Part shown: positions 25,008 to 45,642 of the stretch, in pieces
Numbering within the stretch: position 1 is the stretch's first letter
Layout of the letters: each line of letters opens with the position of its first letter
IMG/VR virus record: IMGVR_UViG_3300030102_007788
Location: 33,139-97,138 of that record
Reading direction: 5' to 3' (one strand)
DNA length: 64,000 nucleotides
Source of the DNA: a virus
The notes under the pieces: model-generated
What the model was told of the DNA's origin: nothing
The model's database searches: none
What the model saw: the letters and a program-made list of their open reading frames with translations, nothing else
Program-made: the position numbers and the translations under genes

Positions 25008-25744
25008 TTGCTAGGATTCATGGTGACTGTTTGCATAACATTAAAAGGTTAGTATCTAGTGTTTTAGTCCAAAGTCATTATAATTTTAGGCTTCATTTAG
25101 CTATCGACAAAACCTCTAACGAGGTTATTTCTTTATGCAGGCAGATAGAATCTGACCCTCAGTGCGTTATGCCTTTTCCCGTCGATTACCCATCCGGTAC
25201 AATAAAAGTCTGGGAAAACAATGGTGACCGACTTTACGCTGTAGCCAACACGGCTCGCGTTTTAGATTCTCTTAACGATATAGATTCAATTATAGGAGTC
25301 ATAGATGCTGACGACCAACTCTGTGAAAGGAGCGCTTTACAGTGGGTCAACAGACTTTACAATAACGCAAATTTAGGCGCTGTTTGGACATCAAACATCT
25401 GGGAGCCGTATGGTATTAATTTATGTTCAAACAATTTAGATGACTCTCAAGATGTATATAAACATCCTTGGGTAAGTAGTCACTTCAGAACCTTCAAGCT
25501 CGGATATTATAAAAGAGTTAATCCAGATAATTTTAAAGATGAAAATGGCGACTGGATGAAAAGGTGCGAAGACCAAACTTTTATGCTTCCCATTATCCAC
25601 GTAATTCATAAAAATAACGAGCACACACATTTTTTAGAAAATCCATGTTATCTGTATAGAGGATATCAAGAGATAGGTGGTGAAGCGCATCAATACCAAA
25701 TGCAATTAGAAAAATTTATAAGAAATAGAGGTTTTGTAGAATGA
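24923..25744 (+). CDS. Glycosyltransferase family 2-like (GT-A)
   Basis: Up to 273 residues from a GTG at 24923, overlapping the previous gene by 85 bases; the true start is probably a little later, near FELIARIHGDCLH. Landmarks: ARIHGDCLHNIKRLVSSVLVQ (family 2 N-terminus) and GVIDADDQLCERSALQW, with the DxD metal site. The C-terminal part carries KRCEDQTFMLPI, the usual acceptor-side acidic pair. Confidence 0.72.
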   Translation: MELQFREDGRILKRKARIITSKTHKFELIARIHGDCLHNIKRLVSSVLVQSHYNFRLHLAIDKTSNEVISLCRQIESDPQCVMPFPVDYPSGTIKVWENNGDRLYAVANTARVLDSLNDIDSIIGVIDADDQLCERSALQWVNRLYNNANLGAVWTSNIWEPYGINLCSNNLDDSQDVYKHPWVSSHFRTFKLGYYKRVNPDNFKDENGDWMKRCEDQTFMLPIIHVIHKNNEHTHFLENPCYLYRGYQEIGGEAHQYQMQLEKFIRNRGFVE

Positions 25745-26691: not shown

Positions 26692-27584
26692 AAAATTATA
26701 ACGCTTGTATTTCTTATATATCCTCACGAGAGAACTGTATAGGTAACTCTCTAAAGTCACTACATGATAACTTTAATTATAAATACAACTACCCTGTCTA
26801 CGTTCATTATTTTGACGATATATATTCTCATCCCGATTTACTAAAGTCAGTACATGAGCAAATAGGTGATTACATCCAATTTATCAAAATAGATTATAAC
26901 ACCCCAAAACATGTAAAAAAGGAAGACTTATTTTTTAATAGAGATTTGTGGTATGTGAATAATCATTTTTCCGTACATAGGATTGGTTACTTGCATATGT
27001 GTCATTTTGTTAGCAACATGTTTGAGTATCCCAACACTAAGTTTCATGAGTATGATTACGTAATGGTTCATGACGATGAAGCTGGATACAATTCAGAATT
27101 ACCTTACAACCCATTTGAAATTCTCTCTGAGCGGGAAGAATTTTTAGGTAGTTTTAAATCAGGCCAAAGGTTAAGAGACGGCAAACCTCACCAAGGTCAC
27201 TTAGACACTAGAATTGGTCTTTGTGAACTAACAGTTAATTTCTTAAAAAAGAATAACATAACCCCTAAAAATAAAAAGTTATTAAATTTGTTAGATAGCG
27301 ATACTGCTGAAAGTGACTTTCACTTTTTAGATTGGTGCGACACTTACGTCCTTAAAACATCAATGTTTAAAACTGATATATGGAAACTCTGGATAAAGGA
27401 GGTGAACGAAAGTGGAGGTATCTACAAATACCGCTGGGGAGACAATGAAATAATTAGCCTATTTGCGCATTTTGTTCAAGAGGAAATTTTTGATTTTAAA
27501 GCTGTTGAGGAGGGATACCACGACTTAGGTAAATACAGAAGACTACAAGACACCGCGCCAAGTGTGCAAGACCTAAATAAATGA
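26688..27584 (+). CDS. Glycosyltransferase family 15-like (Kre2/Mnt1 type)
   Basis: A 298-residue protein. YDYVMVHDDEAGYNSELPYN near residue 123 corresponds to the acidic donor-binding stretch of the Kre2/Mnt1 alpha-1,2-mannosyltransferases. KYRWGDNEIISLF near residue 246 matches the signature RWGDAPV-H-S-I of that family. GT15 enzymes are known chiefly from fungi. The protein lacks a membrane anchor. In this context it may add a mannose-type sugar. Overlaps both neighbours by four bases. Confidence 0.65.
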   Translation: MKNYNACISYISSRENCIGNSLKSLHDNFNYKYNYPVYVHYFDDIYSHPDLLKSVHEQIGDYIQFIKIDYNTPKHVKKEDLFFNRDLWYVNNHFSVHRIGYLHMCHFVSNMFEYPNTKFHEYDYVMVHDDEAGYNSELPYNPFEILSEREEFLGSFKSGQRLRDGKPHQGHLDTRIGLCELTVNFLKKNNITPKNKKLLNLLDSDTAESDFHFLDWCDTYVLKTSMFKTDIWKLWIKEVNESGGIYKYRWGDNEIISLFAHFVQEEIFDFKAVEEGYHDLGKYRRLQDTAPSVQDLNK

Positions 27585-28516
27585 CCTTTTACATCATAGA
27601 GCCTCATTTTCACTATCAACAGTTTTCTTATTATTCTACATTAGCAAAAGAAATAGTAAAAAATGAAGATGCCCAAGTAGCCCTAAATCCAAATTCTATC
27701 CAAGACATACCAGAATCTCTTTCTAAAGAGAATTGTATTTTTTTAGGCTTGGGTTTTTTCGATAGCAAATGCTATGAAAAACATTTTTCTAACTTCCTGA
27801 ATACAAAGGCTTTAAAAATAGCATACTTGCATAAAGTAAAAAACTCCTATCAAGAAAAAATAAACTTCTGCAAAAGCCATAAGGTAGATTTGATTCTAAC
27901 TTCCACCCCCTTAGAAAAAGAAATACAAGAAGATTCAGGTATACGAACTTTCACTTTACCATATGGAGCAGATCCCAATACTTTCAATATTGCCCCTGAT
28001 GTTAAAAAACAATATGACATAAGCTTCAGCGGCGCTATGCATGAAAACAAGCAGGGTGTACCAGAAGAATTATTAAACATAAGATTTAAAGCGCGTGATC
28101 TTATCAAAGAAAGAAAAGACTTGTCTATTTTTTGGAATGGCTCTGACGACCCCAGTCAATCCTATAGAATGTCCCAGCCTGAATATGTCAAAAAACTAAA
28201 TCAAAGCAAGATCTGGTATGCTGCGACTGGGCCAGCTTGGGACATGAACCCTCGTCATTCTGAAATTTTATTTTGCGGAGCTGTTTTGCTTACAAACGAA
28301 ACCCCTAGCGGTTATTATGACCAATGGGAGGACGGTTTTAATTGTGTTCGATACAAGACGGATCTGTCAAATCTTAATGAAAAAATAAATGAAGCGTTAG
28401 AAAAACAAGAATTTATAAGCAAAAACGCATATAATTTTGCGTTAGATAATTTAACTCCTAATAAAATTTACGAAAGACTTAAGTGGATAATAAAGCAAAA
28501 TTTAAAGATAATTTAA
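27581..28516 (+). CDS. CgeB-like glycosyltransferase (GT-B)
   Basis: A 311-residue protein whose C-terminal third reads MNPRHSEILFCGAVLLTNET then PSGYYDQWEDGFNCVRYKT, the layout of the Glyco_trans_1_2/CgeB group. GADPNTFNIAPDVKKQYDIS precedes it. It overlaps the radical SAM gene by 34 bases. Confidence 0.72.
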   Translation: MTFYIIEPHFHYQQFSYYSTLAKEIVKNEDAQVALNPNSIQDIPESLSKENCIFLGLGFFDSKCYEKHFSNFLNTKALKIAYLHKVKNSYQEKINFCKSHKVDLILTSTPLEKEIQEDSGIRTFTLPYGADPNTFNIAPDVKKQYDISFSGAMHENKQGVPEELLNIRFKARDLIKERKDLSIFWNGSDDPSQSYRMSQPEYVKKLNQSKIWYAATGPAWDMNPRHSEILFCGAVLLTNETPSGYYDQWEDGFNCVRYKTDLSNLNEKINEALEKQEFISKNAYNFALDNLTPNKIYERLKWIIKQNLKII

Positions 28517-29337
28517 AGCTTATAGAGATAGAAATTTTTTCTTTCTGTAATAGGAAGTGCTGGTTTTGCCCCAACTCTTATGTGGATCGTATTTCAGAAA
28601 CAACTTTCATGAATGAGGAAGTATATTTAGGCCTCATCAAACAACTTCAGGAAATAGATTATTCAGGCGAGTTAACATACAGCAGATACAACGAGCCCCT
28701 TTCTTACCGAGAAGTTTTTACTAAAAGAGTAAAACAAGCTCGTAAACTTTTACCAAATGCAACCTTAAGAACAAATACTAACGGAGATTATATAACTAGA
28801 GATTACATAGAAGAGCTTTGTGACATAGGGCTAGATCAACTTTGGATTCAACAGTATTTAGCTAATCAAGAAAGGTACAATCATGCTAAAGTAAAATCAA
28901 AAATGATATCTAAAATTAAAAAATTAGACTTACCTTACGAAACGCTTGTTGATATAGAAGGCTGTAAAATAGAGTTTGACCTCTCTCACAGGGATACCAC
29001 AATTCACCTTAGGGCAAGAAACTTTGCGATTGACGGATCTAGCAGAGGAGGTACCGTACCTATTGCAGAGCAGTACACAAGAACACAACGATGCCTTCAG
29101 CCGTTTCATAATATGTACATTGATTACAACGGGCACGTTATGGTGTGTTGCGCCCTAAGGTCTGACGTGGAGCCTTACGACGAAGGTAGAATGGGGCACA
29201 TAAACCAAGGTAAATTATGGGACATACATTCTAGCGACACCTATAAACCTTGGAGGGAGCACCATAAAGAAGACGGCCCCAAAGAGGGGGTTTGCAAAAC
29301 TTGCAGAGACAATGTCAAGCCATCTTATCTAGAATGA
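28483..29337 (+). CDS. Radical SAM enzyme with SPASM-like C-terminus
   Basis: A 284-residue enzyme. CNRKCWFC puts Cys22, Cys26 and Cys29 in the CxxxCxxC motif that holds the SAM-cleaving Fe4S4 cluster. The C-terminal part has more cysteines (C204, C222, C223, C271, C274; CKTC) in the SPASM pattern, which holds an extra cluster. Such enzymes make epimers, dehydrogenated sugars or peptide modifications. The substrate is unknown, but its place within the sugar island points to a sugar or glycan precursor. Starts at GTG. Confidence 0.82.
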   Translation: MDNKAKFKDNLKLIEIEIFSFCNRKCWFCPNSYVDRISETTFMNEEVYLGLIKQLQEIDYSGELTYSRYNEPLSYREVFTKRVKQARKLLPNATLRTNTNGDYITRDYIEELCDIGLDQLWIQQYLANQERYNHAKVKSKMISKIKKLDLPYETLVDIEGCKIEFDLSHRDTTIHLRARNFAIDGSSRGGTVPIAEQYTRTQRCLQPFHNMYIDYNGHVMVCCALRSDVEPYDEGRMGHINQGKLWDIHSSDTYKPWREHHKEDGPKEGVCKTCRDNVKPSYLE

Positions 29338-30110
29338 AAACAGCGGTACTTATAACAGGTCAACTTAGAGACTATAAGATAAATTGCCTTAACCATGTCA
29401 AGCATCTTATAGAACCCAACAACGCAGATGTTTTTGTTTATGCATGCACTCAAAATACTATTCACAACTGCGGTAAGAGTCTAGACCAGAAATATTATAG
29501 AACTGCTAACTATGGCAAAGATGAGATAATTGATAATGTAAGTGAAATATATGGCAATTACTTAAAACTTGTAGAAGTAGATGAAAATGAAAAGTTAACG
29601 GAGGATGACTTTGGCACACTTGGATATTTCAGAACAAGGATGCAAAACCAAATAGATAACATAGGCAAAGGTTTTGCTATGGCTAAGTCCCATGACGATT
29701 ATGACGTTATAATTAGATGCAGACCTGACAACTCTATGTACTTGCAGCCTGTCAAAGTTAAGGATTTCCCTTTTAACGACACTACAATATATAGCACGGT
29801 TTTTATGCCATCTAGGCATAGGGATTTATGTTTTTTTGCGATGGCTAACCCACACGTATTTGAAAAATACTGCTCTTACGAATACCTTAAAGGGGAAGAC
29901 CCAAATAGAAAGGATAGTAACTTTTTATGCACGGAGCACGCTTGGGAGGGGTATTTAATGCAAAACGGCATAAATGTTCAATATATACCAGATGTATGCA
30001 GGCCATTCACTCAATTTGACAAAAGCACAAAAGTAGCAGATTTCCCATACAGAAACGAAAAAGAAAAGTTGGTGGATCATCACGGAAATTGGGTAGATCA
30101 AGTAATATAA
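29334..30110 (+). CDS. Glycosyltransferase-like protein
   Basis: From the ATG at 29334 (overlapping the previous stop, ATGA) the protein has 258 residues. The N-terminus MKTAVLITGQLRDYK is typical of a small group of predicted phage and viral glycosyltransferases. DDYDVIIRCRPDNSMYLQPV near residue 120 holds a D-N-D-like donor site. No certain family. Confidence 0.55.
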   Translation: MKTAVLITGQLRDYKINCLNHVKHLIEPNNADVFVYACTQNTIHNCGKSLDQKYYRTANYGKDEIIDNVSEIYGNYLKLVEVDENEKLTEDDFGTLGYFRTRMQNQIDNIGKGFAMAKSHDDYDVIIRCRPDNSMYLQPVKVKDFPFNDTTIYSTVFMPSRHRDLCFFAMANPHVFEKYCSYEYLKGEDPNRKDSNFLCTEHAWEGYLMQNGINVQYIPDVCRPFTQFDKSTKVADFPYRNEKEKLVDHHGNWVDQVI

Positions 30111-30991
30111 TGCAGCCTGTTATAAGAGTAGACTTTACCGTAGGGTTTGGTAATAACTTATTCCAATTTGTTTACGCTAAATTATTAGCTGAAAAAATCG
30201 GAGCCAAGATTTATATTCTCTCTCCTATTACAGACTACTTTGGAATAGATTGCCTAGACTTGCTAGTAGCAGACGACACCTATGAAAATGTTTCTGTATA
30301 TTTTTCTAGTAAAATTTTTGAAAACGGGCTTCCCTTAAAACAGGTGACTACCGAGCAGCAGGCTAAGACCGAGCTAGAGAACCCTTCAAAGTGCAACTAT
30401 TTACTTAATGGTTATTTCGAAGATTATACGTTATACGAAACCCATCTTGAAAAAATTAGATCTTGGTTTATTAGACCTGATGTTATAGATAAAGAAAATG
30501 CAGTCTTGCATCTAAGGTTAGGAGATAGGTTATTCATCCCCACAACTTACCAACAGGAAAGTCTTCTTACTTTCGATAAGTATAAACGCGGCTTAGATCA
30601 AATGGATTTTGACAAACTTTACATTGTTTCTGACCTACCTGAGTGGAGGCATTTTAAATATGATGAGCTTTTACAATACAGATACCACGTTAAGGTTGAG
30701 GAAAATACTCTCGAAATGTCTGCAAAAGCTGCTAATTACGTAAACGAATTAGTTGAAAAATTTTCAAATTCATATAAAATAAGCTTTTGTAACGGTAATC
30801 TTAGTTCTGATTTTTATAAGATTATGAGCTACGATAAAATTATTTTTGGCTATAGCACTTTCGCTTGGTGGGCAGCCGCTTTAAGCGGCGCTTCTAAAGT
30901 AGGTGTTTTTGAACCATGGAGGCCATGGAAAAAAGAAAATAATAAAAATTTAGGTAAAACAAGCTACCCCGGTTGGTTTGGGTGGAAATAA
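30110..30991 (+). CDS. Alpha-1,2-fucosyltransferase-like (GT11)
   Basis: From the ATG at 30110 (TAATG overlap) the protein has 293 residues. The GT11 motifs are present: GFGNNLFQFVYAKLLAEK at the start, LHLRLGDRL in the middle (H-x-R-x-G-D) and FGYSTFAWWAAALSG near the end. GT11 uses GDP-L-fucose. Two genes down lie the enzymes that make GDP-L-fucose, which supports this call. Confidence 0.8.
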   Translation: MQPVIRVDFTVGFGNNLFQFVYAKLLAEKIGAKIYILSPITDYFGIDCLDLLVADDTYENVSVYFSSKIFENGLPLKQVTTEQQAKTELENPSKCNYLLNGYFEDYTLYETHLEKIRSWFIRPDVIDKENAVLHLRLGDRLFIPTTYQQESLLTFDKYKRGLDQMDFDKLYIVSDLPEWRHFKYDELLQYRYHVKVEENTLEMSAKAANYVNELVEKFSNSYKISFCNGNLSSDFYKIMSYDKIIFGYSTFAWWAAALSGASKVGVFEPWRPWKKENNKNLGKTSYPGWFGWK

Positions 30992-30995
30992 AATT

Positions 30996-31934
30996 ATGAA
31001 ACATATAGTAACAGGCGGAGCGGGTTTTATAGGAACTCACTTAGTTAAAAAACTTGTAGAGCAAGGTGATGAGGTAGTTGTAATTGATAATCACTCCTCC
31101 TCTGGCGGTGAACTTTTAAATGAGAACAGTTTAAAAGAATCTGTGACAACAATTTCTGGCGATATATCGTATATAAAAACCCAGACAGGCTTGCATCATA
31201 AGTTAAAAGACGCTTTTGAAGGTGTCGATACTGTTTTTCATTTAGCTGCGAGAGCTAGAGTGCAACCTTCAATTGAAAATCCAGTATTTTTTAATGCGAC
31301 TAACGTTGAAGGAACATTAAACATGCTGGAGTATGCGCGAGAAGCCAAGGTTAGAAGGTTTGTTTTTACTTCCTCTTCTTCTCTTTATGGCGATACAGAA
31401 GTTTTTCCAACTCCCGAAACGCTGGAGCCTAACCCCTTAAGCCCCTACGGTCTACAAAAACTAATAGGAGAACAGTATTGCCAGTTATATTCTCGCATCC
31501 ACGATATGGATACAGTGTGCTTAAGATACTTTAATGTTTACGGAGAAGGAGCTCCAACAAAAGGTGCTTATTGTCTCGTTATGGGTATATTTATCAGGCA
31601 AGCACTTGAAGGAAAAAATTTAACTATATATGGAAACGGGCAGCAACGCAGGGATTTTACTTATGTAGGCGATGTTGTAAACGCCAATATCTTAGCCTCT
31701 AAGTGCGATAAAAAGTTCGCGGGAGAAGCTTTCAATATAGGGAACGGAGAAAACAAAAGCGTTCAAGAGATTGCAGACGTTTTCAAGCTGCCCTGCGATT
31801 ATTTACCGGCAAGATTAGAGCCCCAACAGACCTTAGCGGATAATTCTAAAGCTAAGGAAGTGCTAGGGTGGGAACCTACCGGAGATGTTGTAACGTGGCT
31901 GGAAAGACATTTAACAGAAATACTTAAAAAATGA
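30996..31934 (+). CDS. SDR NAD-dependent epimerase/dehydratase acting on a sugar nucleotide
   Basis: From the ATG at 30996 the protein has 312 residues. GGAGFIGTHLVKKL binds NAD. The catalytic set is SSSSLYG and PYGLQKLIGEQ (Y-x-x-x-K). RYFNVYGEGAPTKGAY follows. It is closest in shape to UDP-GlcNAc/UDP-Glc 4-epimerases and UDP-sugar dehydratases; which one cannot be told. Confidence 0.82.
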   Translation: MKHIVTGGAGFIGTHLVKKLVEQGDEVVVIDNHSSSGGELLNENSLKESVTTISGDISYIKTQTGLHHKLKDAFEGVDTVFHLAARARVQPSIENPVFFNATNVEGTLNMLEYAREAKVRRFVFTSSSSLYGDTEVFPTPETLEPNPLSPYGLQKLIGEQYCQLYSRIHDMDTVCLRYFNVYGEGAPTKGAYCLVMGIFIRQALEGKNLTIYGNGQQRRDFTYVGDVVNANILASKCDKKFAGEAFNIGNGENKSVQEIADVFKLPCDYLPARLEPQQTLADNSKAKEVLGWEPTGDVVTWLERHLTEILKK

Positions 31935-32863
31935 AAATATTCATAGCAGGGCATAATGGTCTTGTTGGTTCAGCCATCAAGAGAAGGTTAGCGGGAGAAG
32001 ACGTTGAAGTAATTTATGCTAATAGGCATAGCTTAGACCTACTCGACCAAAGGGCAGTAGGGTACTTCTTCGAAGCGAATAAGCCAGACGTTGTCATAGA
32101 TGCCGCAGCCAAAGTTGGAGGTATTCACGCTAACAATATCTATCCAGCAGATTTCATTTATCAAAATTTACAGATTCAAAATAATATAATTCACAGCTGC
32201 TTTGAAAACAAAGTTAAGAAGTTAATTTTTTTAGGTAGTATATGTATTTACCCAAAGTTTGCTGAGCAACCAATCAAGGAAGAATACTTACTGACTTCAC
32301 CCCTTGAGCCTACTAACGAACCCTATGCCGTAGCAAAGATAGCTGGAATTAAGATGTGTCAAAGTTATTACCGCCAGCATGATTGTGATTTCTTTTCTTT
32401 GATGCCAACGAATCAATACGGGCCTAATGATAATTTTCACCCCGAGAATTCTCATGTTTTACCAGCCCTTTTACGACGTTTTCATGAAGCTAAACGAGAC
32501 GGTGTGCCTTCTGTTAAGGTGTGGGGCACGGGTAAAGCTAAAAGAGAGTTTCAATATGTTGACGACTTGGCTGATGCTTGCGCTTTTGCTATTGAAAATA
32601 TTACAGCAGCCGATGTCTACGAAAACGGAGCCACACATTTAAACGTGGGAACAGGGGAAGAGTGGTCAATAGAAGGCTTGGCTCAAAAGATAGCTCAAGT
32701 TGTCGGTTACGAGGGCGATATATTGTTTGACGATAGAAAGCCAGACGGAGTACTAAGGCGTGTTGGAGACAACTCTCGTATAAACAAATTAGGCTGGAGT
32801 CACAAATACTCTTTAGAAGAAGGTCTCGATTTAACCTATAATTGGTACAAGGATAATGTCTAA
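31931..32863 (+). CDS. fcl: GDP-L-fucose synthase
   Basis: A 310-residue SDR enzyme, the second step of GDP-L-fucose synthesis: epimerisation and reduction of GDP-4-keto-6-deoxymannose. GHNGLVGSAIKRRL, AAKVGGIHANN, LGSICIYPKFA, EPYAVAKIAGIKM and REFQYVDDLADA are all hallmarks. Adjacent gmd gives the substrate. Confidence 0.93.
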   Translation: MKIFIAGHNGLVGSAIKRRLAGEDVEVIYANRHSLDLLDQRAVGYFFEANKPDVVIDAAAKVGGIHANNIYPADFIYQNLQIQNNIIHSCFENKVKKLIFLGSICIYPKFAEQPIKEEYLLTSPLEPTNEPYAVAKIAGIKMCQSYYRQHDCDFFSLMPTNQYGPNDNFHPENSHVLPALLRRFHEAKRDGVPSVKVWGTGKAKREFQYVDDLADACAFAIENITAADVYENGATHLNVGTGEEWSIEGLAQKIAQVVGYEGDILFDDRKPDGVLRRVGDNSRINKLGWSHKYSLEEGLDLTYNWYKDNV

Positions 32864-33896
32864 GAGAGTATTAGTAACAGGAATCACTGGGCAAGACGGT
32901 TCCAACATGGTTGATTACTTGCTAAAAAATACCGATCACTTAATTTTTGGTATGGCAAGAAGGTCGTCTAACATAAATTTAGAAAACTGTACTGATTTTA
33001 TTGATGACGAAAGGTTTCAGTTAGTTTACGGAGACCTAACGGACAGCTTTTCAATCGCTAAATTAGTACAAGAGATTCAACCAGACTATTTTATAAATTT
33101 CGCCGCCAACTCTTTTGTTGGATGTAGCTGGGATATGCCTGAGCACGTAATGGACACTAATACTGTTGGCACCATTAGGTGCTTAGAGGCTATTAGGAGA
33201 TATCAACCTAAATGTAGATATTACAGTGCCGGAAGTTCAGAAGAGATGGGAGACGTAGATTACAGCCCACAAGATAAAGCTCACCCACCTAAACCCAGAA
33301 GCCCATATGGAGTATCCAAAGTAGCGGCTAGATATTTAGTTAAAGTTTATAGAGAGTCCTATGGAATCTTCGCCATTCATGGCATCTTGTATAATCACGA
33401 GGGTATCCGAAGAGGCGAAGAGTTCGTTACCCGTAAAATTACCAAGGGAGTTGCTCGTATATTATGTGCAATGGACCAAGGGAAGGAATTTGACCCGATC
33501 TCGCTAGGCAATATAAATTCCAAGCGAGATTGGTCTGATTCTGAAGATTTCATCCATGGAGTTTGGCTTATGCTTAATCAAGATGAGCCAAAAGAATATA
33601 TTCTATCCAGCAACGAAACTCATACAATAAAAGAGTTTGTTGAAGTAGCTTTTGAAGCTGCTGGTATTGAAGGCACATGGAGCGGAGAAGGGATAAACGA
33701 AAAATATACATGCTCCCTTGACAAGACTCCATTAGTAGTAATATCTGAGAAATTTTATCGCCCCTGTGAGGTAGATATTCTTTATGGCGATTCTACCCCA
33801 ATAAGAGAAGAGCTAGGATGGAAACCTGAATGGGACTTTAATGGTTTAGTAACTAGAATGGTAAACAATGACATTCGGTTGAAAAAAAATGGATGA
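32856..33896 (+). CDS. gmd: GDP-mannose 4,6-dehydratase
   Basis: A 346-residue SDR enzyme, the first step from GDP-mannose to GDP-L-fucose. GITGQDGSNMVDYLL, RSSNINLENC, AGSSEEMGDV, PRSPYGVSKVAARYLV and YNHEGIRRGEEFVTRKITKG follow the family closely. Overlaps fcl by eight bases. Confidence 0.93.
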   Translation: MSKRVLVTGITGQDGSNMVDYLLKNTDHLIFGMARRSSNINLENCTDFIDDERFQLVYGDLTDSFSIAKLVQEIQPDYFINFAANSFVGCSWDMPEHVMDTNTVGTIRCLEAIRRYQPKCRYYSAGSSEEMGDVDYSPQDKAHPPKPRSPYGVSKVAARYLVKVYRESYGIFAIHGILYNHEGIRRGEEFVTRKITKGVARILCAMDQGKEFDPISLGNINSKRDWSDSEDFIHGVWLMLNQDEPKEYILSSNETHTIKEFVEVAFEAAGIEGTWSGEGINEKYTCSLDKTPLVVISEKFYRPCEVDILYGDSTPIREELGWKPEWDFNGLVTRMVNNDIRLKKNG

Positions 33897-34562: not shown

Positions 34563-34946
34563 ATGGCCGCTAAACGGAAGCGCAAACCTACCTTAAATCA
34601 GTTCATTATCAATAAGCTTCTGGATAATCCAAAAGCTATTTGGAAGAACAAAGGTATCGTTTCCCGTGAAATGGGGTTCACAAAAAAATTAATAGAAAAA
34701 TACCCGCTTGAGGCTTTTTGGAGGGCGTTGCCTTTGAAATTTAGCGCCGAAAGCTTGGCTTGGTACATTTCTCCACAGGGATGGGCCTACCTTAAAATAG
34801 AGTTTGCTAAATTTTCTATGGATATTAAGCCTAGCGAGACCCATAATACGTCGGACTCCAAGTTCGGAGAGGACAAAATTATTTCAAAAACTACTAGAAC
34901 AATAGAGGATTTTTTAAAGTATGGCAGCGAAAAAGAAAACGGTTGA
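34563..34946 (+). CDS. Hypothetical basic protein before uvsX
   Basis: A 127-residue protein, Lys/Arg-rich at the N-terminus (MAAKRKRKPTLNQF). LEAFWRALPLKFSAESLAWY is the most hydrophobic stretch. It overlaps uvsX by 26 bases, so it may act with the recombinase, for example as a loader, but no family is recognised. Confidence 0.55.
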   Translation: MAAKRKRKPTLNQFIINKLLDNPKAIWKNKGIVSREMGFTKKLIEKYPLEAFWRALPLKFSAESLAWYISPQGWAYLKIEFAKFSMDIKPSETHNTSDSKFGEDKIISKTTRTIEDFLKYGSEKENG

Positions 34947-36012
34947 AGGGTTTAACCCAGTAGATCAGATAGAAAGCTATCTTAATGCTCACAAAGATGA
35001 GCATTTTAATTTTGAAGAAGAGCCAAATTACGTGGTTTCAAGCGGCAGCTTGCTTCTCGATAACGAAATGTCAGGAGGAATCAGGCCCGGAGTTATTAGG
35101 GCATCTGGTGTATCAGAAGGCGGCAAGACATCTTGTGCCCTGTCTTTTGCTAGAAATTTTCAAGATACCGTTAAGAACGGAATGGTTATCTACATCAAAT
35201 CGGAGGGTAGATTATCTCCCGAAATGATAGAGAGATCAGGCGTAGACACCTCCAAGGAAAAATGGTTTGTCTATAAAAGTAATATTTTTGAAAGCGTTTT
35301 ACAGTTAATGAGGGAGATGATCATGAACAACCCTACTGACTGTAGGTATTTCTTTATCATTGACTCTATGGACGCAATGGTTCCCAAAAAAGATCTAGAG
35401 AAGGGTTTTGACGACCCAGATAAGGTGGCTGGAGGTTCAGTATTAAGCTCCACATTTCTAAAGAAAATGGCTTTAGGACTTTCCACAAAAGGTCACATTT
35501 GTTTCATGATCTCTCAGGTTAGAAGTAAGGTGAGCGTGAACCAGTATGAAAAAACTGACCCCAAGCTAACAAATGCCTCTGGCGGCAATGCCCTTCTTCA
35601 CTACTCTGATTGGATTCTGGAATTTCAGCAGCGATTTGGAGGCGATTCAATTCCCGCTAAAGCTGACAAGCCTGAAGGTCATTATTGCAAGATTGTATTT
35701 CGTAAGAGTGCAAACGAAAAGACAGGAACTGTTGTCCGCTACCCAATTAAATATGGCAGAGTAAACGGTAAAAGTGTCTGGGTGGAGTATGAAGTGCTTC
35801 AGTTTATGATGGAGTGGGACATGGTAGATGTTAAAGGCGCATGGATAATCGTTGACGATCAAATTGTAGAGGACGTTAAAAAAGAAACTGGACTCGAGAT
35901 CGCCTCAAAACATCAAGGTGCAGATAATTTCAGAAAATATCTAGAAGAGAACACCGAAATATGCAATTACCTGTTTAGCAAATTCAGGAATGCTCTCACC
36001 ATTGCATCGTGA
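34921..36012 (+). CDS. uvsX: RecA/UvsX-like recombinase
   Basis: A 363-residue strand-exchange protein. Walker A GVSEGGKT is at residues 63-70, followed by a catalytic-Glu strand (YIKSEGRLSPEMIERSGVD) and a Walker B (YFFIIDSMDAMVPKK). NASGGNALLHYSDWILEFQ near residue 218 matches the RecA L2 and following strand. Its divergence from host RecA suggests a phage UvsX-type role in recombination-dependent replication. Confidence 0.88.
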   Translation: MAAKKKTVEGFNPVDQIESYLNAHKDEHFNFEEEPNYVVSSGSLLLDNEMSGGIRPGVIRASGVSEGGKTSCALSFARNFQDTVKNGMVIYIKSEGRLSPEMIERSGVDTSKEKWFVYKSNIFESVLQLMREMIMNNPTDCRYFFIIDSMDAMVPKKDLEKGFDDPDKVAGGSVLSSTFLKKMALGLSTKGHICFMISQVRSKVSVNQYEKTDPKLTNASGGNALLHYSDWILEFQQRFGGDSIPAKADKPEGHYCKIVFRKSANEKTGTVVRYPIKYGRVNGKSVWVEYEVLQFMMEWDMVDVKGAWIIVDDQIVEDVKKETGLEIASKHQGADNFRKYLEENTEICNYLFSKFRNALTIAS

Positions 36013-36425
36013 AGCTTTACGACATAAGAGGGAGACTTGTAAATAAAAGTGTCACTAGATATAAAATTGACTGGGATGCCGCTTGTAGATCAAAACTACA
36101 ATACAACGTTAAACAATTTTTCAAAACGTTTTGGTATGGCCAAATCTGCTATGAAGAGTTTCCAGTTTACGGAACTAGGATGAAAGTTGATCTAGTAAAC
36201 ATGACTAAAAGAATAGCTGTTGAAACCCAAGGGGCACAGCACGACTCCTTTAACAAGTTTTTCCACAATAACTCTAGAGCCAATTACTTAAGGTCAATAA
36301 CTCGCGACCACGATAAAAGAATATGGTTAGAAAACAATAATTTTAAAGTTTTAGAGATTTTTGAGGAAGATTTAAAGTCTTTATCGAAAAAGTATATTAG
36401 CGATAAGTTTGAAATAGATATCTAA
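36009..36425 (+). CDS. Vsr/PD-(D/E)XK-like nuclease
   Basis: A 138-residue protein. TRMKVDLVNMTKRIAVETQG near residue 56 carries the D...E-x-Q core and QHDSFNKFF follows; HDKRIWLENNNFKVLEIFEE is the usual C-terminal helix and strand of the Vsr/DUF559 fold. Its ATG overlaps the uvsX stop (GTGA), suggesting a joint role in recombination or repair. Confidence 0.6.
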   Translation: MKLYDIRGRLVNKSVTRYKIDWDAACRSKLQYNVKQFFKTFWYGQICYEEFPVYGTRMKVDLVNMTKRIAVETQGAQHDSFNKFFHNNSRANYLRSITRDHDKRIWLENNNFKVLEIFEEDLKSLSKKYISDKFEIDI

Positions 36426-36438: not shown

Positions 36439-36446
36439 TTATGCAG

Positions 36447-36719
36447 ATGAGTAAAAGCCAAACGACAAGAATTCCGGACTCGCTCCTAGATCAAATTAGT
36501 GAGTGGTCTTGCGGAGGATTCATGTTATTTAATTTCGATGAGGATGGTAATCCCCAAGTATACTCAAAAGTAGAGAGTGAAAAGAACGCTATGTCTCTAC
36601 AATACTTAATTAACCATTGGTCTGAAGCCATGGAATCGATGAATTCAGATACTTTCATTAAAAATTTAAATAGTGCTTTTGACGATCCAGAAGAAGAAGG
36701 ATACGAAGACGATGAGTGA
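36447..36719 (+). CDS. Hypothetical acidic protein
   Basis: A 90-residue protein from the ATG at 36447 (92 from 36441). The C-terminus is strongly acidic (DDPEEEGYEDDE). It overlaps the tubulin-like gene by eight bases. No recognised family. Confidence 0.5.
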   Translation: MSKSQTTRIPDSLLDQISEWSCGGFMLFNFDEDGNPQVYSKVESEKNAMSLQYLINHWSEAMESMNSDTFIKNLNSAFDDPEEEGYEDDE

Positions 36720-37977
36720 TACCGATATAAACCAATACTACCCACAGGACGAAGTTCCTCCTGTTACTTTAACTGCTGGCGAGGCACCAGAAGCTGCTCC
36801 CGCAACACCAGAAGAACCCAAGCCAAATACTGAGGAGGCTCCAGCTACGGAACCTGTAGAAGACTTGGGCATTGATTTACCAGATATTCCACTACCCGAC
36901 GACGAACCGATAGAAGACGCGATCAAAGATACTTTTGACGATGCTGCTTTTAACTTTGCGGTTGTGGGTGTCGGGCAAGGAGGTTCTAGGCTGGCTGAGT
37001 CTTTTTGGAACTTGGGTTATCGTCGTGTTGGTGTTATTAACACCGCTCAACAGGATCTTTCTTTGATCAAAATTCCTGAATCAAATAAATTGCTAATTGG
37101 TGATGGAGGAGCTGGTAAAAATCCTGACGCCGCTGATGAGGTATTTAGAACTAGATATGAAGACATATTAGATTTTCTTAAAAAGACTTTCGGCGCTGGA
37201 TACGAAAGGGTTCTGGTGTGTGCTGGCGCAGGTGGAGGCACCGGAGCGGGAGGGGTCGCTAGGGTTTTGGAAATTTGCCATGATCTAAATCAGTCTCTCG
37301 GAAAAGAGACTAAGGATACTGACGCAAAGGTTGGATGCATTCTTGCGTTACCAACTAAAGGCGAAGGTATCAAAGTCCAAGACAACGCTAAGAAAACGAC
37401 ACTTAAAGTCTTAGACTTGCAAAAAGCTGGCGTTATCTCCCCGTTGGTTATACTGGACAATGAAAAAATTAAGCAGCTTTATCCCAAGCTGAGCGTAAAT
37501 CAATTTTGGACTACTGCAAATAGCAGTATCTGTTCTGTATTTCATTTGTTCAATAAGATTTCCGCTAAAGAATCTGCTTATACTACTTTTGACAAAGCTG
37601 ATTTGGATACTATTTTCTCATCGGGAATTATTATGTTTGGAGCAACTCCTGTTAAGGATACATCCGAAACTGGCATTTCTTACGCCGTGAGAGATAATTT
37701 GCGTAAGAATATTTTAGCAGGCGTTGACGCATCAACCGGAAACGTTGCTGCTTGTATCATTATCGGAGACAAAGATTCTCTTGACAATATCCCTCAGTCT
37801 AGCTTAGAACATGGGTTTGAACAATTGAGTCGGATGATGGGTTCAGGCTCAACAGTTCACCGCGGTATTTATGCTGGCGCCAAGAAAGGCGTAGCCGTTT
37901 ATACTGCTATCGGAGGTCTGCAGGCACCTGAAAACCTGTTCGATTATTTCTTCAAAGTGGACCGAGTATATAAATAG
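36712..37977 (+). CDS. FtsZ/tubulin-like GTPase
   Basis: A 421-residue protein. Residues 1-78 are an acidic, Pro/Ala/Glu-rich tail. The GTPase part starts at VVGVGQGGSRLAESFWNLGY (84-103). AGAGGGTGAGG (171-181) is the tubulin signature GGGTG(S/T)G that grips the GTP phosphates. TFDKADLDTIFSSGIIMFG (292-310) matches the T7 loop and strand of FtsZ, with Asp294 and Asp297 in place for GTP hydrolysis. So it looks active, and closer to FtsZ than to PhuZ. Phage tubulins position DNA or the replication zone in the host cell. The N-terminal tail is unusual. Confidence 0.85.
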   Translation: MSDTDINQYYPQDEVPPVTLTAGEAPEAAPATPEEPKPNTEEAPATEPVEDLGIDLPDIPLPDDEPIEDAIKDTFDDAAFNFAVVGVGQGGSRLAESFWNLGYRRVGVINTAQQDLSLIKIPESNKLLIGDGGAGKNPDAADEVFRTRYEDILDFLKKTFGAGYERVLVCAGAGGGTGAGGVARVLEICHDLNQSLGKETKDTDAKVGCILALPTKGEGIKVQDNAKKTTLKVLDLQKAGVISPLVILDNEKIKQLYPKLSVNQFWTTANSSICSVFHLFNKISAKESAYTTFDKADLDTIFSSGIIMFGATPVKDTSETGISYAVRDNLRKNILAGVDASTGNVAACIIIGDKDSLDNIPQSSLEHGFEQLSRMMGSGSTVHRGIYAGAKKGVAVYTAIGGLQAPENLFDYFFKVDRVYK

Positions 37978-37980
37978 TAT

Positions 37981-39486
37981 ATGCCCATATATTCTAATCA
38001 AGTCGAGCATCATGTGCTCGGCGGGCTGCTAAAACACCCAACTGTCCTTTCGGAGATTGATTCTTTTGTTAGTATAGGTGATTTCTACAACGATGTTCAT
38101 CAGACTATATATTGCGTATTAAGAGATTCTATCCTTAGCGATGATAAGATCGATAAGGTGCTAATTGCTACAAAGATATCTAATTTAGGTATTTCCTCAA
38201 AAGATGATATCGAGATATACGATTATATAAATACTCTTTTCCACACCCCAATTACTAAAGGCGCTGTTATAGAAGCTTGCAAGGAATTGGTTAAGTTTAG
38301 AATCAGAAGAGAGTTAAGCGAGACTGCTGACAGAATAAAAGATCATGTTAAGAATTCTTCATGCGAAACATTAGAGGATATTATATCTAAGTCAGACTCT
38401 ATATACGGGGACAAGGTAACTAGCTACTCCTTTGAGGATGACCCTAAAAATGTTTTTGATGATTTAGAATACCTCATTGAAGAGAGGGGCAACAACCCAG
38501 TCGAGGACACAGGACTCGCTACGCCTTACAATGAGTTTAATCGATTGTTTGGCGGCCTAAGAGACGGTAACGTATATGCAATTGTTTCTAGACCAGCGCA
38601 GGGTAAAACTACTTTCATAAACGACATCTGCCTTGGCACCGCAATCAAAGCAAACGTGCCAGTACTAGTACTGGATACAGAGATGACAACTGAAGAGATT
38701 CAGTTTCGTATGGCAGCAGCAAATACTGGAGTCCCTCTGTGGTATTTGGAAACTGGTAAGTTCAGAAATAACAAAGAAATGTTAAATAAGGTTAGAAACT
38801 ATTTTAATAACCTTAAGACCCATAATTACTTCCACTACCATGTAAAAAATAAAAACGTTGACGAGATATGCGCTTTAATTAGGAGGTGGCATATGAAGCA
38901 TGTTGGCCGAGGTAATAAATGCATTATAGCTTACGACTATGTAAAACTTACAGGTGAAAAGGTAAGTCAAAACTGGGCAGAGCACCAAGCTATCGGCGAG
39001 AAGATTGATAAACTTAAAAGGATAGCTGAAGAAATAAAAGCTCCACTTATTACTGCTATGCAGATGAATAGGTCGGGAGAAAGCCATAACAGAAATTCTA
39101 ATACTCTTGTTGACGATAGTTCAGTAATATCGTTATCCGATAGACTTCAGTGGTTTGCTACATTCGTAGCCATCTTTCGGCGAAAGACGGTAGACGAAAT
39201 AGCGTTAGATGGAGAACGTTTTGGTACTCATAAACTTGTACCACTTAAAACTCGATTCCAAGGTAAGGACGCAGCAGGTCACCAAGATTTAATTCGTCGG
39301 CAAACTGTAGAAACTATAAATGGCAGAGAGGTTGAAAGTGAAAGATTGATGAACAACTTCCTTAACTTCACCGTAGAGAACTTTAAAGTGTCAGAGCAAG
39401 GGTCACTTCAAGACATCATCAGATTTGAGTCTCAGAATTTTGATATACAGTCTGGAAACAATGATGACGACGGATTACTAATATGA
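37981..39486 (+). CDS. dnaB: DnaB-like replicative helicase
   Basis: A 501-residue protein. The N-terminal domain (SNQVEHHVLGGLLKHPTVL) matches the DnaB N-domain. RecA-like core: SRPAQGKTTF Walker A at 203-212, LVLDTEMTTEEIQFRMAA, Walker B CIIAYDYVKL, and ITAMQMNRSGE with the helicase Gln/Arg sensors. It unwinds the phage fork and works with the next gene, the primase. The C-terminus is acidic (NNDDDGLLI). Confidence 0.92.
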   Translation: MPIYSNQVEHHVLGGLLKHPTVLSEIDSFVSIGDFYNDVHQTIYCVLRDSILSDDKIDKVLIATKISNLGISSKDDIEIYDYINTLFHTPITKGAVIEACKELVKFRIRRELSETADRIKDHVKNSSCETLEDIISKSDSIYGDKVTSYSFEDDPKNVFDDLEYLIEERGNNPVEDTGLATPYNEFNRLFGGLRDGNVYAIVSRPAQGKTTFINDICLGTAIKANVPVLVLDTEMTTEEIQFRMAAANTGVPLWYLETGKFRNNKEMLNKVRNYFNNLKTHNYFHYHVKNKNVDEICALIRRWHMKHVGRGNKCIIAYDYVKLTGEKVSQNWAEHQAIGEKIDKLKRIAEEIKAPLITAMQMNRSGESHNRNSNTLVDDSSVISLSDRLQWFATFVAIFRRKTVDEIALDGERFGTHKLVPLKTRFQGKDAAGHQDLIRRQTVETINGREVESERLMNNFLNFTVENFKVSEQGSLQDIIRFESQNFDIQSGNNDDDGLLI

Positions 39487-40379
39487 GCGATGGTATTAAA
39501 GATATCTTAACAGAGATAGGTTATACTCTTCGTGACTGCGGTAAGGAGTATAGAACTAAACCCCTATACAGAGATTCTGATAACCCAAATGTATTATGTA
39601 TTCAAAAAGAAACTGGTGTTTGGTTTGACTTCAAAGAAAACAAATACGGAAAGCTAGAAGATCTAGTAAAGCTCACCTTAGACCTCAAAGATATCTCAGA
39701 GGCAAAAGATTTCATCAAAAGCAAGGGCGTAACGCATACCGTAGCTCGACCAAAAGAAAAACTAAAAAGCCAAGCCTTTTACAAGTTAGATAATTTGAGT
39801 AAAATGTTTCCCGAGTACGAATACTGGGAGAGTAGAGGTGTTAGCTCCACCACACTGAAGATGTTAGAAAGCGGAGTGATGAAAGAGGGAAAATTAAACA
39901 GTAGATATGTTTTTCCTATTTTTGATGGTTATGATCGATTGGTAGGTTGCGCAGGGAGAGATATCACTAATAAAAGCCCGATAAAATGGAAACTTTTAGG
40001 GGAAAAGAGGTACTGGGTCTATCCTTTTAAATACAATAAAGATGAAATATTAAAAACCAAACACGTATTCCTAGTCGAAAGCATTGGCGATATGCTAAGC
40101 TTATGGGAAGCTGGGATTAAAAATACTTTAGTTTTATTCGGTTTATCCGCGTCATCAAAAATTAAACAAATCTTGATGATGTTAAATCTGGATAAAATTT
40201 ATATTTCCCTCAATAATGATGAAAGCGAAGCGGGGAACAATGCTGCGAAAAGCATTTACGTAAGCCTCTCTAATCATTTTGACAATAACCAGTTACAAAT
40301 TGAACTTCCAACTAAAAACGATTTTGGTTGTATGTCAAAAGAAGAAATATTAACATGGCACAAAAGAATAAAGATGTAA
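39483..40379 (+). CDS. TOPRIM-type DNA primase
   Basis: A 298-residue primase without the long DnaG C-terminal helicase-binding domain. GVWFDFKENKYG near residue 48 resembles the zinc-less N-terminal phage primase domain. SRYVFPIFDGYDRLVGCAGR then VFLVESIGDMLSLWEAGI holds the TOPRIM Glu, and KIYISLNNDESEAGNNAAKS the acidic metal site. Its start overlaps dnaB by four bases. Confidence 0.82.
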   Translation: MSDGIKDILTEIGYTLRDCGKEYRTKPLYRDSDNPNVLCIQKETGVWFDFKENKYGKLEDLVKLTLDLKDISEAKDFIKSKGVTHTVARPKEKLKSQAFYKLDNLSKMFPEYEYWESRGVSSTTLKMLESGVMKEGKLNSRYVFPIFDGYDRLVGCAGRDITNKSPIKWKLLGEKRYWVYPFKYNKDEILKTKHVFLVESIGDMLSLWEAGIKNTLVLFGLSASSKIKQILMMLNLDKIYISLNNDESEAGNNAAKSIYVSLSNHFDNNQLQIELPTKNDFGCMSKEEILTWHKRIKM

Positions 40380-41373: not shown

Positions 41374-42138
41374 ATGGAGGAAATTGTCCCGCTGTTTAAA
41401 AGTCATTGTAGTCTCGGGAGGTCAATACTGACCTTAGAGAAACCAAAGGATGAGGCTGACCCTGAAACCAGTGATTCAGTTTTCGATATAGTCAAGCAGG
41501 AAAACTTAGAGGATGTTTTTCTAGTCGAGGATAATATGACAGGTTTTCTTCAGGCCTACACAAATGCAGAAGAACTTGGAGTTAAACTAGTTTTTGGACT
41601 GCGCATTACTTTTTGCCCAGACCACGCAAATAAATCAGAAGAGGGAAGGAAAAATTCTTACAAAAATATTATATTTGCCAAGAACAACGCTGGGTATAAA
41701 CAGTTAATAAAAATATATACTCACGCATCTCAGGATGGCTTCTATTATGAACCGCGTACAGATAACGCTAAATTTAAAGAGTTTTATACGGAAGACCTGA
41801 TGTTGGCGATACCTTTTTATGATTCTTTTCTGTATGTTAATAAATATACAGACTCAAGCTGTGTTCCGAATTTTTCTTTTTGTGATCCAATTTTCTTTGT
41901 TGAGGATAACGACGTGTTAGTCGATCAAGATTTGGAAGCTTCAGTGCATAAGTTTTGTGATGGTAAATATGACATAATCAAAACAAAAAGTATATTTTAT
42001 AAAAATAAGACAGACTTCGGAGCTTATTTAACACACCGATGCATCAGTAAAAGAACCAGTTTGGAAAAGCCAAACTTTGATGGTATGTGCTCTAATGAAT
42101 TTTGTTTTGAAAGCTACAAGGAGGTAGTGAATGGATAG
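41374..42138 (+). CDS. Free-standing PHP domain of DNA polymerase III alpha
   Basis: A 254-residue protein. FKSHCSLGRSIL fits the start of the polymerase PHP domain. TNAEELGVKLVFGLRITFC and KNIIFAKNNAGYKQLIKIYT follow the DnaE PHP line by line, as does GFYYEPRTDNAKF. The DHGN motif is changed to EDNM, so a metal site His is lost and the domain is probably not a nuclease. The rest of the polymerase is the gene at 43012; the DEDDh exonuclease lies between. Overlaps the next gene by eight bases. Confidence 0.75.
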   Translation: MEEIVPLFKSHCSLGRSILTLEKPKDEADPETSDSVFDIVKQENLEDVFLVEDNMTGFLQAYTNAEELGVKLVFGLRITFCPDHANKSEEGRKNSYKNIIFAKNNAGYKQLIKIYTHASQDGFYYEPRTDNAKFKEFYTEDLMLAIPFYDSFLYVNKYTDSSCVPNFSFCDPIFFVEDNDVLVDQDLEASVHKFCDGKYDIIKTKSIFYKNKTDFGAYLTHRCISKRTSLEKPNFDGMCSNEFCFESYKEVVNG

Positions 42139-42824: not shown

Positions 42825-43064
42825 ATGGCCAGTTTAGATTTTGTATATGACCTTACAGATAGATTTGAAGAAGATAATATTGAGTATGTTGTCGTCGCTC
42901 TACGAGAAGGTAAAGAATTAGATAAAGTAGATGTATTTTATAAAACAAAACCAGAGTCAAAGGCCTCTATGCTTACTGCCTTGGAACAGCTTTCAAAGTT
43001 AATAAAAGAAGATGACGGAGATAGTTCAGACGGCAAAAAAAAGAAGAGGCGAAGGAAAAAATAA
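42825..43064 (+). CDS. Small protein between exonuclease and polymerase core
   Basis: A 79-residue protein (81 if the ATG at 42819 is used). Mixed alpha/beta start (FVYDLTDRFEEDNIEYVVVA), an acidic hinge, and a very basic tail (GKKKKRRRKK). It overlaps the polymerase gene by 53 bases. It may hold the split polymerase together or bind DNA, but no family is recognised. Confidence 0.6.
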   Translation: MASLDFVYDLTDRFEEDNIEYVVVALREGKELDKVDVFYKTKPESKASMLTALEQLSKLIKEDDGDSSDGKKKKRRRKK

Positions 43065-45642
43065 ATTTTCCAGTAGGTTTAAGTCTCTAAACGTTCCCCT
43101 ACATGGAGTAAGATTACCAACGTTTACTCCTGAAAAAAAATATCTAGAAGAATATGGGGTCGATGAATCGGCTTCTAATTTAGAATTCTTGAAGCAGATT
43201 TGCCGCAAGAGGTTCAAAGAACTCAAACTCGGGGAGAAAACGAACTCCAAAGAGTACAATGACCGAATGATCAAAGAGCTTAACTTGATCGAAGAGTTAG
43301 GGTTCGTTGATTATATGCTTCTTGTCTGGAAGGTTATAAGATTCTGCAGGGACGGGGATATACCCCTAGGTTTAGGAAGAGGTTCCGCTGCGGGGAGTTT
43401 GGTTTTATATCTTCTTCACGTTACCTCTATTGACCCAATCAAGTATGGTTTGTTTTTTGAAAGATTTGTTTCTAAAGCTCGCGCTAAAAAAAGTGTTGTA
43501 GATGGGGTGACTTATCTTGATGGAGACTTGATGTGTGACGTTGATATAGATGTATGTTATTACAGGCGTCAAGAGATATTGCAGTACCTCAAACAAGAAT
43601 TTGAAGGTTATAGTTCTAAAATTTTAACGCTCAACACGCTTTCCGGTAAACTTGTAATGAAGGAGTGCGGTAAAGTTGTCGCGGAGAAAAATGAAGTTGA
43701 AATGAATCAAGTGTCAGGAATGATACCTAAAATTTTTGGTCAGGTTATGGACATAGCCGATGCAAGAGAAGAGGTTCCTGAGTTTGACGAATGGTGTGAT
43801 AATAATCCTAAAGTTTTTAAGATTGCTCAAAAGATAAAAGGACTGATTAAAAATAAAGGGGTTCATGCTTCAGCGGTCATGCTATCTTATCATAAAACTA
43901 TAGATAGCTGTCCCTGCGAGCTTGACTCATCAAAAGAGCCTGTCTCCTCTTTTGAGGCTGACTGGGTTAACAAATTTAATGTTAAATTAGATGTTTTAGG
44001 TTTAAGAACTTCTTCCGTGGTTCACGAATGTTGCAAAACGATTAGAGAGATAAGAGGCGAAGAGCTTTATCCCGAGACTATTGATTTAGATAATCCAGAA
44101 ATTTATGAGTTATTAAATAGAGGGATGGAGGAAGGCCTCTCAAGCGGACTGTTTCAAATTGAAGGTGATTTGGCTGCTCAAACTTGCACCAAAGTTAAAC
44201 CTACCAACTTTGAACATTTAAGTGCTGTTCTAGCACTAGCTAGGCCGGGAGCAATGGACTACATTGATCGTTATGCTGAATACGTTAACGAAAAAATCTA
44301 TGAACCTGTCCATGAGTTCTTTGATGAGATCTTAGAGGAAACTGGCGGCATCGTTCTTTACCAAGAACAGATGATGAAGATGGCAAATAAAATCGGCTTC
44401 ACTCTCGACGAGGCTGAAATTTTACGCCGTATTGTCGGTAAGAAAAAAGTCTCAGAAGTTAAAAAATGGAAAAAGAAGATTAGAGATAAAGTCAAGGAGA
44501 ATAATCTAGCAAAGGAAATTGGAGACGTACTTTGGAAAGTATTAGAGGACTCTGCTAATTACTCTTACAATAAATCGCATTCGGTTTCTTATGCAGCTTT
44601 AGCTGCCGCTACTGCTTACTTAAAATTTAAATATCCTCGTGAATTTTACTTGTCGTTACTTAAAATGACAAAGTATGAACCTAAACCTTTAGAGGAAATA
44701 GCCAGCATATCCCGCGAGCTAAAGTTAATGGGAATTAAATTGCTCGGGCCAAACTTATTGAAGTCTGAAATGGATTTTTCTGTCGAGGGAGAAAATATTA
44801 GATTTGGCTTAACTTCAATTAAGGGTATTGCTGAAAAGTCTATAGAAAAGCTAGAGTCTTTTAAAGACCAATACTCGAACAAGTTTGAAGTGTTCCAAGG
44901 AGCCAACCAAGCAGGGATTGGAGTAGGTATATTATCATCCCTTATTCAAGCGGGGGCTTTGGACGGAGATATAAAGCAATCTAGAAGTAAAATAGTAGCC
45001 GAAGCACAACTTTGGAATTTACTAACAGCAAGAGAGCGTGGTCTAGTTTTTGATATTGCGGCTGAATACAATTACGATTTGTCTAAGATAGTTCAAATGA
45101 TGTTTAAAGAGCTCAAAGATATCAAAGGAAAACCTTTGATTAAAGAGTCACGGATGAACACTATCCGAAAACATTTTGCGCCGTATAAAGAAATCTACAA
45201 TAAAAATAGCGCTAATGAAGATTTTGCAAACTGGTACTATGAAAACATATTACTAGGATATACTTACGGTAAAAGATTAAAGGACGTAAGCCCCGAGTAC
45301 AATCATTTAGTTTCTATTGAAGATGCTTTACAAGCAGGGGAGGGCTCAGTTTCCTTTATCGGTACTGTTGAAGATACTTGGCTAACTAAAAGTAAGAAGG
45401 GAACTCCTTACTTTAAGATAACCATGAAAGATGAATCTGCCGATTGCACCGTTATGATTTTTTCTAACAAGAAAAAAGACAACATTGAGGAATGTAAACG
45501 CGCCAACGATGGAGTGCTACCCAAAAAGGGTAATATTGTAATTATAAAAGGCGTAGTAAAAGAAGGTAATACTGTTTTTGGTAATTTAGCCAAAGTACAG
45601 GATCAAAAAATTTATATGAAATTAAGCGAGATAAAGTCTTGA
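43012..45642 (+). CDS. dnaE: DNA polymerase III alpha core (lacks PHP domain)
   Basis: An 876-residue polymerase that starts where a PHP domain normally ends. GLGRGSAAGSLVLYLL (about 120-135) and IDPIKYGLFFERFV precede the catalytic CDVDID (175-180) carrying two of the metal-binding Asp; VKLDVLGLRTSSVV near 323 gives the third. GVHASAVMLSY, LFQIEGDLAAQTC, KSHSVSYAALAAATAYLKFK and an OB fold near the end (GSVSFIGTVEDTWLTK) follow the bacterial order. The first 20 residues are unusual. It lacks the PHP domain, which is the gene at 41374. Its stop lies within the promoter for the SSB-like gene. Confidence 0.9.
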   Translation: MTEIVQTAKKRRGEGKNKFSSRFKSLNVPLHGVRLPTFTPEKKYLEEYGVDESASNLEFLKQICRKRFKELKLGEKTNSKEYNDRMIKELNLIEELGFVDYMLLVWKVIRFCRDGDIPLGLGRGSAAGSLVLYLLHVTSIDPIKYGLFFERFVSKARAKKSVVDGVTYLDGDLMCDVDIDVCYYRRQEILQYLKQEFEGYSSKILTLNTLSGKLVMKECGKVVAEKNEVEMNQVSGMIPKIFGQVMDIADAREEVPEFDEWCDNNPKVFKIAQKIKGLIKNKGVHASAVMLSYHKTIDSCPCELDSSKEPVSSFEADWVNKFNVKLDVLGLRTSSVVHECCKTIREIRGEELYPETIDLDNPEIYELLNRGMEEGLSSGLFQIEGDLAAQTCTKVKPTNFEHLSAVLALARPGAMDYIDRYAEYVNEKIYEPVHEFFDEILEETGGIVLYQEQMMKMANKIGFTLDEAEILRRIVGKKKVSEVKKWKKKIRDKVKENNLAKEIGDVLWKVLEDSANYSYNKSHSVSYAALAAATAYLKFKYPREFYLSLLKMTKYEPKPLEEIASISRELKLMGIKLLGPNLLKSEMDFSVEGENIRFGLTSIKGIAEKSIEKLESFKDQYSNKFEVFQGANQAGIGVGILSSLIQAGALDGDIKQSRSKIVAEAQLWNLLTARERGLVFDIAAEYNYDLSKIVQMMFKELKDIKGKPLIKESRMNTIRKHFAPYKEIYNKNSANEDFANWYYENILLGYTYGKRLKDVSPEYNHLVSIEDALQAGEGSVSFIGTVEDTWLTKSKKGTPYFKITMKDESADCTVMIFSNKKKDNIEECKRANDGVLPKKGNIVIIKGVVKEGNTVFGNLAKVQDQKIYMKLSEIKS

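Follow-up and report, generated by a model that had tools for sequence, protein, structure and literature searches.

A distinct clade of phage tubulins, apparently nearest to TubZ, with a conserved peptide in its N-terminal tail

A tubulin/FtsZ-superfamily GTPase encoded among the replication genes of an uncultured bacterial virus raises the question of which branch of the superfamily it belongs to and what such a protein could do for a phage. The gene lies on the + strand at 36712–37977 of the window (the whole 64,000-nucleotide stretch analysed), opens with an ATG at 36712, closes with a stop at 37977 and encodes 421 residues. It is the sole tubulin gene in the 170,406-base record, which at ~170 kb is below jumbo size and may be incomplete. 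Relatives share its MSDT... beginning, and an AAGGA-type site lies closely upstream of the ATG. Pfam Tubulin (PF00091) matched the protein at E 3.2e-11 with 44.3 bits (cut-off 33) and matched 39/39 family members. Together with IMG/VR relatives, a maximum-likelihood (ML) tree and an AlphaFold2 model (pTM 0.78), this match identifies the protein as a superfamily member in a distinct phage clade. The fold, GTPase motifs, purifying selection, clade, tail features and gene contexts described below are all drawn from sequence or structure prediction.

The first-pass annotation had read a GGGTGAG motif and a two-Asp T7 loop in this protein and expected it to bind and hydrolyse GTP. Both elements are present. 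The T4 loop, or tubulin signature, GAGGGTGAG, occupies residues 172–180 (37225–37251), and the T7 loop FDKAD occupies residues 293–297 (37588–37602) within the stretch FDKADLDT (293–300). The T1 loop GVGQGG (residues 86–91, 36967–36984) and the T3 loop GAGK with its basic residue (133–136, 37108–37119) are likewise in place, all on the + strand. In an alignment of 39 sequences, T1 (G-x-GQGG), T3 (GAGK), T4 (GAGGG(T/S)G) and T7 (FDxxD) were invariant or almost so, and the loops and both T7 aspartates were unchanged among sequences of just 45–60% identity. The aspartates, D294 and D297, are invariant in all 39 members and correspond in alignment to D209 and D212, the catalytic aspartates of E. 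coli FtsZ. Four residues of the H10-S9 region (V382, H383, G385 and Y387) are invariant across the family, and in phiKZ TubZ the longitudinal interface requires rearrangement of the H10-S9 loop (PMC3678025). Between the window gene and its close relatives pS was 0.81–0.91, with synonymous sites near saturation, and pN was 0.05–0.07. Because pS is near saturation while pN is low, conservation of the gene exceeds chance, and by this measure it is under strong purifying selection. As the annotation anticipated, the protein is a real and probably active tubulin-superfamily GTPase.

The GTPase domain is preceded by the ~78-residue acidic, Pro-rich tail (pI 4.05) that had also been described, with the qualification that conservation is confined to residues ~51–62 and the Pro-rich rest is lineage-specific. 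Residues 1–50 (36712–36861, + strand) vary in length and sequence; they are predicted to be disordered (pLDDT 30–39) and have a mean top-residue frequency of 0.11–0.28. Its length ahead of the T1 loop differs widely across the family: L057 has 38 residues there, whereas L022 and L043 have well over 100. Residues 51–62, DLGIDLPDIPLP (36862–36897, + strand), form a conserved block with the core P-D-I-P-x-P, and among 24 representatives the frequencies were 92% for P57, 88% for D58, 88% for I59, 83% for P60 and 96% for P62. This motif sits 15–20 residues ahead of the GTPase domain and is absent from all other ORFs of the same phage. Its block reaches a pLDDT of ~58, compared with 30–39 in the remaining tail, and at only ~58 no docking is predicted. 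The pattern of conservation supports a short peptide suited to partner binding, in keeping with the earlier suggestion that the tail may bind one.

The other end of the protein is correspondingly short. Family members have 4–23 residues beyond the last strand, compared with 64–79 in TubZ and phage G. At this length neither the C-terminal linker and conserved peptide of FtsZ nor, judged also from the model, a C-terminal helix H11 with tail or knuckle is present. The phiKZ TubZ study records a C-terminal H11 for Bacillus, c-st and phiKZ-like proteins alike, and in phiKZ TubZ it describes no significant N-terminal extension and an acidic C-terminal knuckle that contacts the adjacent subunit (PMC3678025). 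The layout of the interaction tail is therefore reversed relative to phiKZ TubZ, being N-terminal rather than C-terminal, and we infer that the N-terminal peptide does the job of a C-terminal tail.

We next consider how widely the family is distributed. A peptide scan of IMG/VR recovered 18 relatives, and profile scans recovered 23 and then at least 202, a lower bound because these scans were pattern-limited; the best 80 of the 202 were retrieved. In one relative (L061, 857–2023) the tubulin ORF is in two pieces, possibly through sequencing error. In INPHARED, tblastn with the window protein gave no match at E <= 0.01, and the distant member L057 matched Bacillus phage G gp138 (E 1e-12); almost no cultured phage carries a member of the clade. 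Closer cellular relatives were sought and rejected: none emerged when GTDB was scanned with family peptides, a second scan returned FtsZ/CetZ only, at 24–29% identity, and a Bacteroidota sample reached at most 72 bits. In the most distant phages with the same replication module the tubulin is 56–65% identical, and UvsX (38–39%), DnaB (37–45%), primase (43–47%) and Pol III (52%) all fall below it.

The protein had been thought to look more like FtsZ, and here the comparisons pointed elsewhere. The family profile scored plasmid TubZs at 88–129 bits and phage G gp138 at 99, compared with 42 for E. coli FtsZ; other cellular FtsZ/CetZ scored 45–86 bits against the full-length profile, and PhuZ was undetected by it. 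The NCBIfam FtsZ equivalog TIGR00065 gave the window protein 58.8 bits, below its cut-off of 295.2. FtsZ_C (PF12327) matched 0/39 members at E<=0.1 (control E. coli FtsZ, 3e-37), and the PhuZ C-terminal domain (PF22334) matched 0/39 (control phiKZ, 2e-37). TubZ-like_C (PF22453) matched 23/39 with a best E of 1.7e-6, the window protein not being among them at E<=0.1. Structural matches of the model ranked TubZ (Z 36.5) above CetZ (34.4) and FtsZ (~31.6). The basic T3 residue also occurs in phage G and in the majority of plasmid TubZs; the FtsZ and CetZ proteins examined lack it.

In ML trees the phage family formed its own clade (support 100/100), and the FtsZ clade was recovered at 100/100 without it. 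The protein is therefore not a recently copied host FtsZ, the outcome by which the phylogeny proposed in the first-pass annotation would have refuted its reading. Placement on the TubZ side was supported at 83/48 or 90/77; PhuZ, with a branch length of 4.6, was omitted from the second tree. Forcing the family together with FtsZ cost 3.7 log units (AU p = 0.245), and with CetZ p was 0.084. The deep tree thus favours TubZ, with the order relative to FtsZ statistically open. Four lines of evidence, profile scores, predicted structure and the T3 residue among them, favour TubZ as the nearest relative, a position favoured rather than proven by the tree.

Each known group nevertheless differs from the family. 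TubZ, known from Bacillales plasmid partition and also from phage c-st, gives the top profile scores and fold match, yet is only ~21–30% identical, belongs outside the family's clade, comes with TubR/tubC, neither of which was found near the window tubulin, and carries C-terminal H11 plus tail where the family has an acidic N-terminal tail. Phage G gp138, annotated FtsZ-like, is a phage tubulin with a GAGR T3 loop, but it clusters with pBM400-type TubZs and has a 64-residue C-terminal tail and no N-terminal one. PhuZ of the phiKZ-like chimalliviruses is also a tubulin of lytic phages, but has its own C-terminal domain and its acidic tail at the opposite end. FtsZ and CetZ share the superfamily fold, the T7 Asp pair and GGGTGxG, but have a non-basic residue at the matching T3 position, and FtsZ has an FtsZ_C domain and C-terminal peptide that the family lacks. 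The top viral structural match in BFVD, A0A6J5RW92 from an uncultured Caudovirales phage (E 4e-30), shows 27% identity; its name, 'FtsZ Cell division GTPase', comes from annotation alone, with no described function.

These comparisons bear on the possibility that the protein inhibits or hijacks host division, either by co-assembling with, capping or poisoning host FtsZ or by using its tail to compete for FtsZ partners. In some lineages the tails contain LGIDLPDI or DIDIPDIP, loosely like the C-terminal peptides of FtsZ (LDIPAFL in E. coli, LGIEFLD-type ends in archaea). However, this resemblance is lineage-specific, and the shared core PDIPxP differs from the FtsZ peptide and is internal rather than terminal. 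Identity to FtsZ is just 20–23%, and the family has retained a GTPase that would be superfluous in a poison. We consider a role of this kind unlikely.

The locus itself bears on a second possibility, namely that the tubulin would serve type III (TubZRC-like) partition and segregate an extrachromosomal phage genome, the role reported for TubZ of phage c-st. As the first-pass annotation had placed it, the gene lies in the replication module, with UvsX and a nuclease on one side and DnaB, primase and Pol III on the other. The order is tight and co-directional, all on the + strand: a UvsX-like recombinase (34921–36012; phrog_97, E 5e-33), a small endonuclease-like protein (36009–36425; phrog_9084, weak PF04480), a 92-residue acidic protein beginning SCGGFMLFNFDEDGNPQVYSK (36441–36719), the tubulin, a DnaB-like replicative helicase (37981–39486; phrog_19, E 6e-55), a DNA primase (39483–40379; phrog_47, E 6e-24), a PD-(D/E)XK nuclease and a DNA polymerase III alpha-type polymerase, whose main part is at 43012–45642 (phrog_405, E 5e-161). 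That polymerase seems split, with a 254-residue ORF (41374–42138) covering phrog_405 positions 64–182 and an 876-residue ORF (43012–45642) covering 324–1079, and two genes between them; the relative L050 (13021–16599) has one undivided polymerase of 1193 residues.

Partition would fit the kinship with plasmid TubZs, which are nearest by profile, fold and T3 residue, and the 92-residue gene overlaps the tubulin start by 8 bp, much as tubR does on plasmids. That upstream protein, however, is acidic (pI 4.05), conserved but restricted to the window group, without a family match, and unrelated to TubR (hhalign 0.4%). Neither a TubR-like neighbour nor iterons/tubC were found at the tubulin locus, and the family lacks the C-terminal tail by which TubZ recruits its cofactor. 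RIIA, RNR, an own polymerase and terminase are encoded, which suggests a lytic phage. Partition on these grounds seems improbable.

Gene contexts in other phages weakened the earlier idea that the protein positions the replication zone, which rested partly on its location. In 11–12 of 25 representatives the tubulin instead lies in a terminase-portal block, in three gene orders: terL-TUB-portal (L021, L022, L041), portal-TUB (L046, L071, L074, L077, L079) and portal-c17-TUB (L070, L072, L083). In the remaining representatives it lies by UvsX/DnaB, as in the window group, or at unrelated sites. No companion gene of the tubulin is shared between any two contexts, so no partner was identified. This recurrent adjacency to terL and portal would suit a packaging or virion accessory, in which the tubulin works locally with terminase or portal, for example delivering or organising procapsids, and does not move DNA. 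Against this, the window phage has an equivalent terL-portal-c17 block (terL 68–69% identical) without tubulin, and the adjacency is missing in many relatives. At terL loci with sufficient room the tubulin was adjacent in 15/34 and missing there in 19/34, and at window-like terL loci it was adjacent in 0/80; long contigs were few in this shared-terminase core-gene comparison, and the tubulin can sit elsewhere in the genome. We regard a purely local packaging role as improbable. One 230 kb record (L058) has no close match to the shared terminase, and thus the widest family exceeds that terminase clade.

A PhuZ-type spindle of a nucleus-forming phage is highly improbable, in agreement with the first-pass annotation, which set the protein apart from PhuZ: the tubulin is on a phage with a large genome and PhuZs are among its viral structural matches, but neither chimallin (phmmer with phiKZ ChmA) nor multisubunit RNA polymerase (PF00562) was found in the possibly incomplete record, PF22334 was unmatched, the family profile did not see PhuZ, and the H11/knuckle tail is missing.

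The reading that we favour, by a modest measure, is that the protein is a cytomotive, TubZ-nearest phage tubulin that positions DNA and/or capsids in lytic growth, with the N-terminal peptide as contact. This reading is put forward because the GTPase is strictly intact and the gene lies beside replication or packaging genes, with no partition partners found nearby. It draws further on the purifying selection, the higher identity of the tubulin than of its replication neighbours in distant phages, the TubZ fold match, the invariant H10-S9 residues, the short C-terminus and the motif that is unique in the phage. Weighing against it, no accompanying gene points to a partner, the low pLDDT of the motif predicts no docking, and adjacency to packaging genes is not general and could be an effect of expression timing. 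The tubulin would bind GTP and then polymerise head to tail, with the T7-loop Asp pair completing the hydrolysis site within the subunit interface. No chimallin nucleus would be involved when the filaments place capsids, replicating phage DNA or both. The PDIPxP peptide may contact a cargo or anchor, or a neighbouring subunit, and would replace the C-terminal tail used by TubZ and PhuZ. In nucleus-forming phages PhuZ serves DNA centring and capsid transport (PMC7950403, PMC10299810).

A 2020 review recognises two groups of phage tubulins, c-st TubZ and PhuZ (PMC7950403), and among marine jumbo phages one survey reports tubulin as peculiar to the phiKZ-like cluster (PMC9123017). The present family is a widespread viral one, so far uncharacterised, although partial coverage of literature and phages means that it may have been named before. 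That it constitutes a third group, of uncultured ~150–230 kb phages without a nucleus, with an N-terminal interaction tail and a link to packaging, is a tentative proposal that we hold at slightly less than even strength. If this proposal is true, many phages beyond the jumbo nucleus-formers organise the cell interior with filaments; if the family forms filaments, phage cytoskeletons would be more frequent than has been supposed and need not accompany a phage nucleus. As a proposed contact, the PDIPxP peptide lends itself to direct testing.

Several features of these genomes were observed in passing. A 3210-residue ORF follows the terminase-portal block in G000 C1 (139354–148986; L029:7355–16987), and L026 carries ORFs of 2183 and 1968 residues. 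In L068 (G007:C1:25465–27299) terL appears as two overlapping ORFs (model positions 1–427 and 423–608), either a true split or a frameshift. In one lineage (L057/L058, 9076–11568) cytidyltransferase- and NAD synthetase-annotated genes follow the tubulin on the opposite strand. Finally, about ten successive genes of ~270–370 residues each occupy 24126–33896 of the window; two that were examined are of GDP-mannose dehydratase/epimerase type and a third falls in their cluster, which hints that the phage carries a pathway for sugars or surface glycans.
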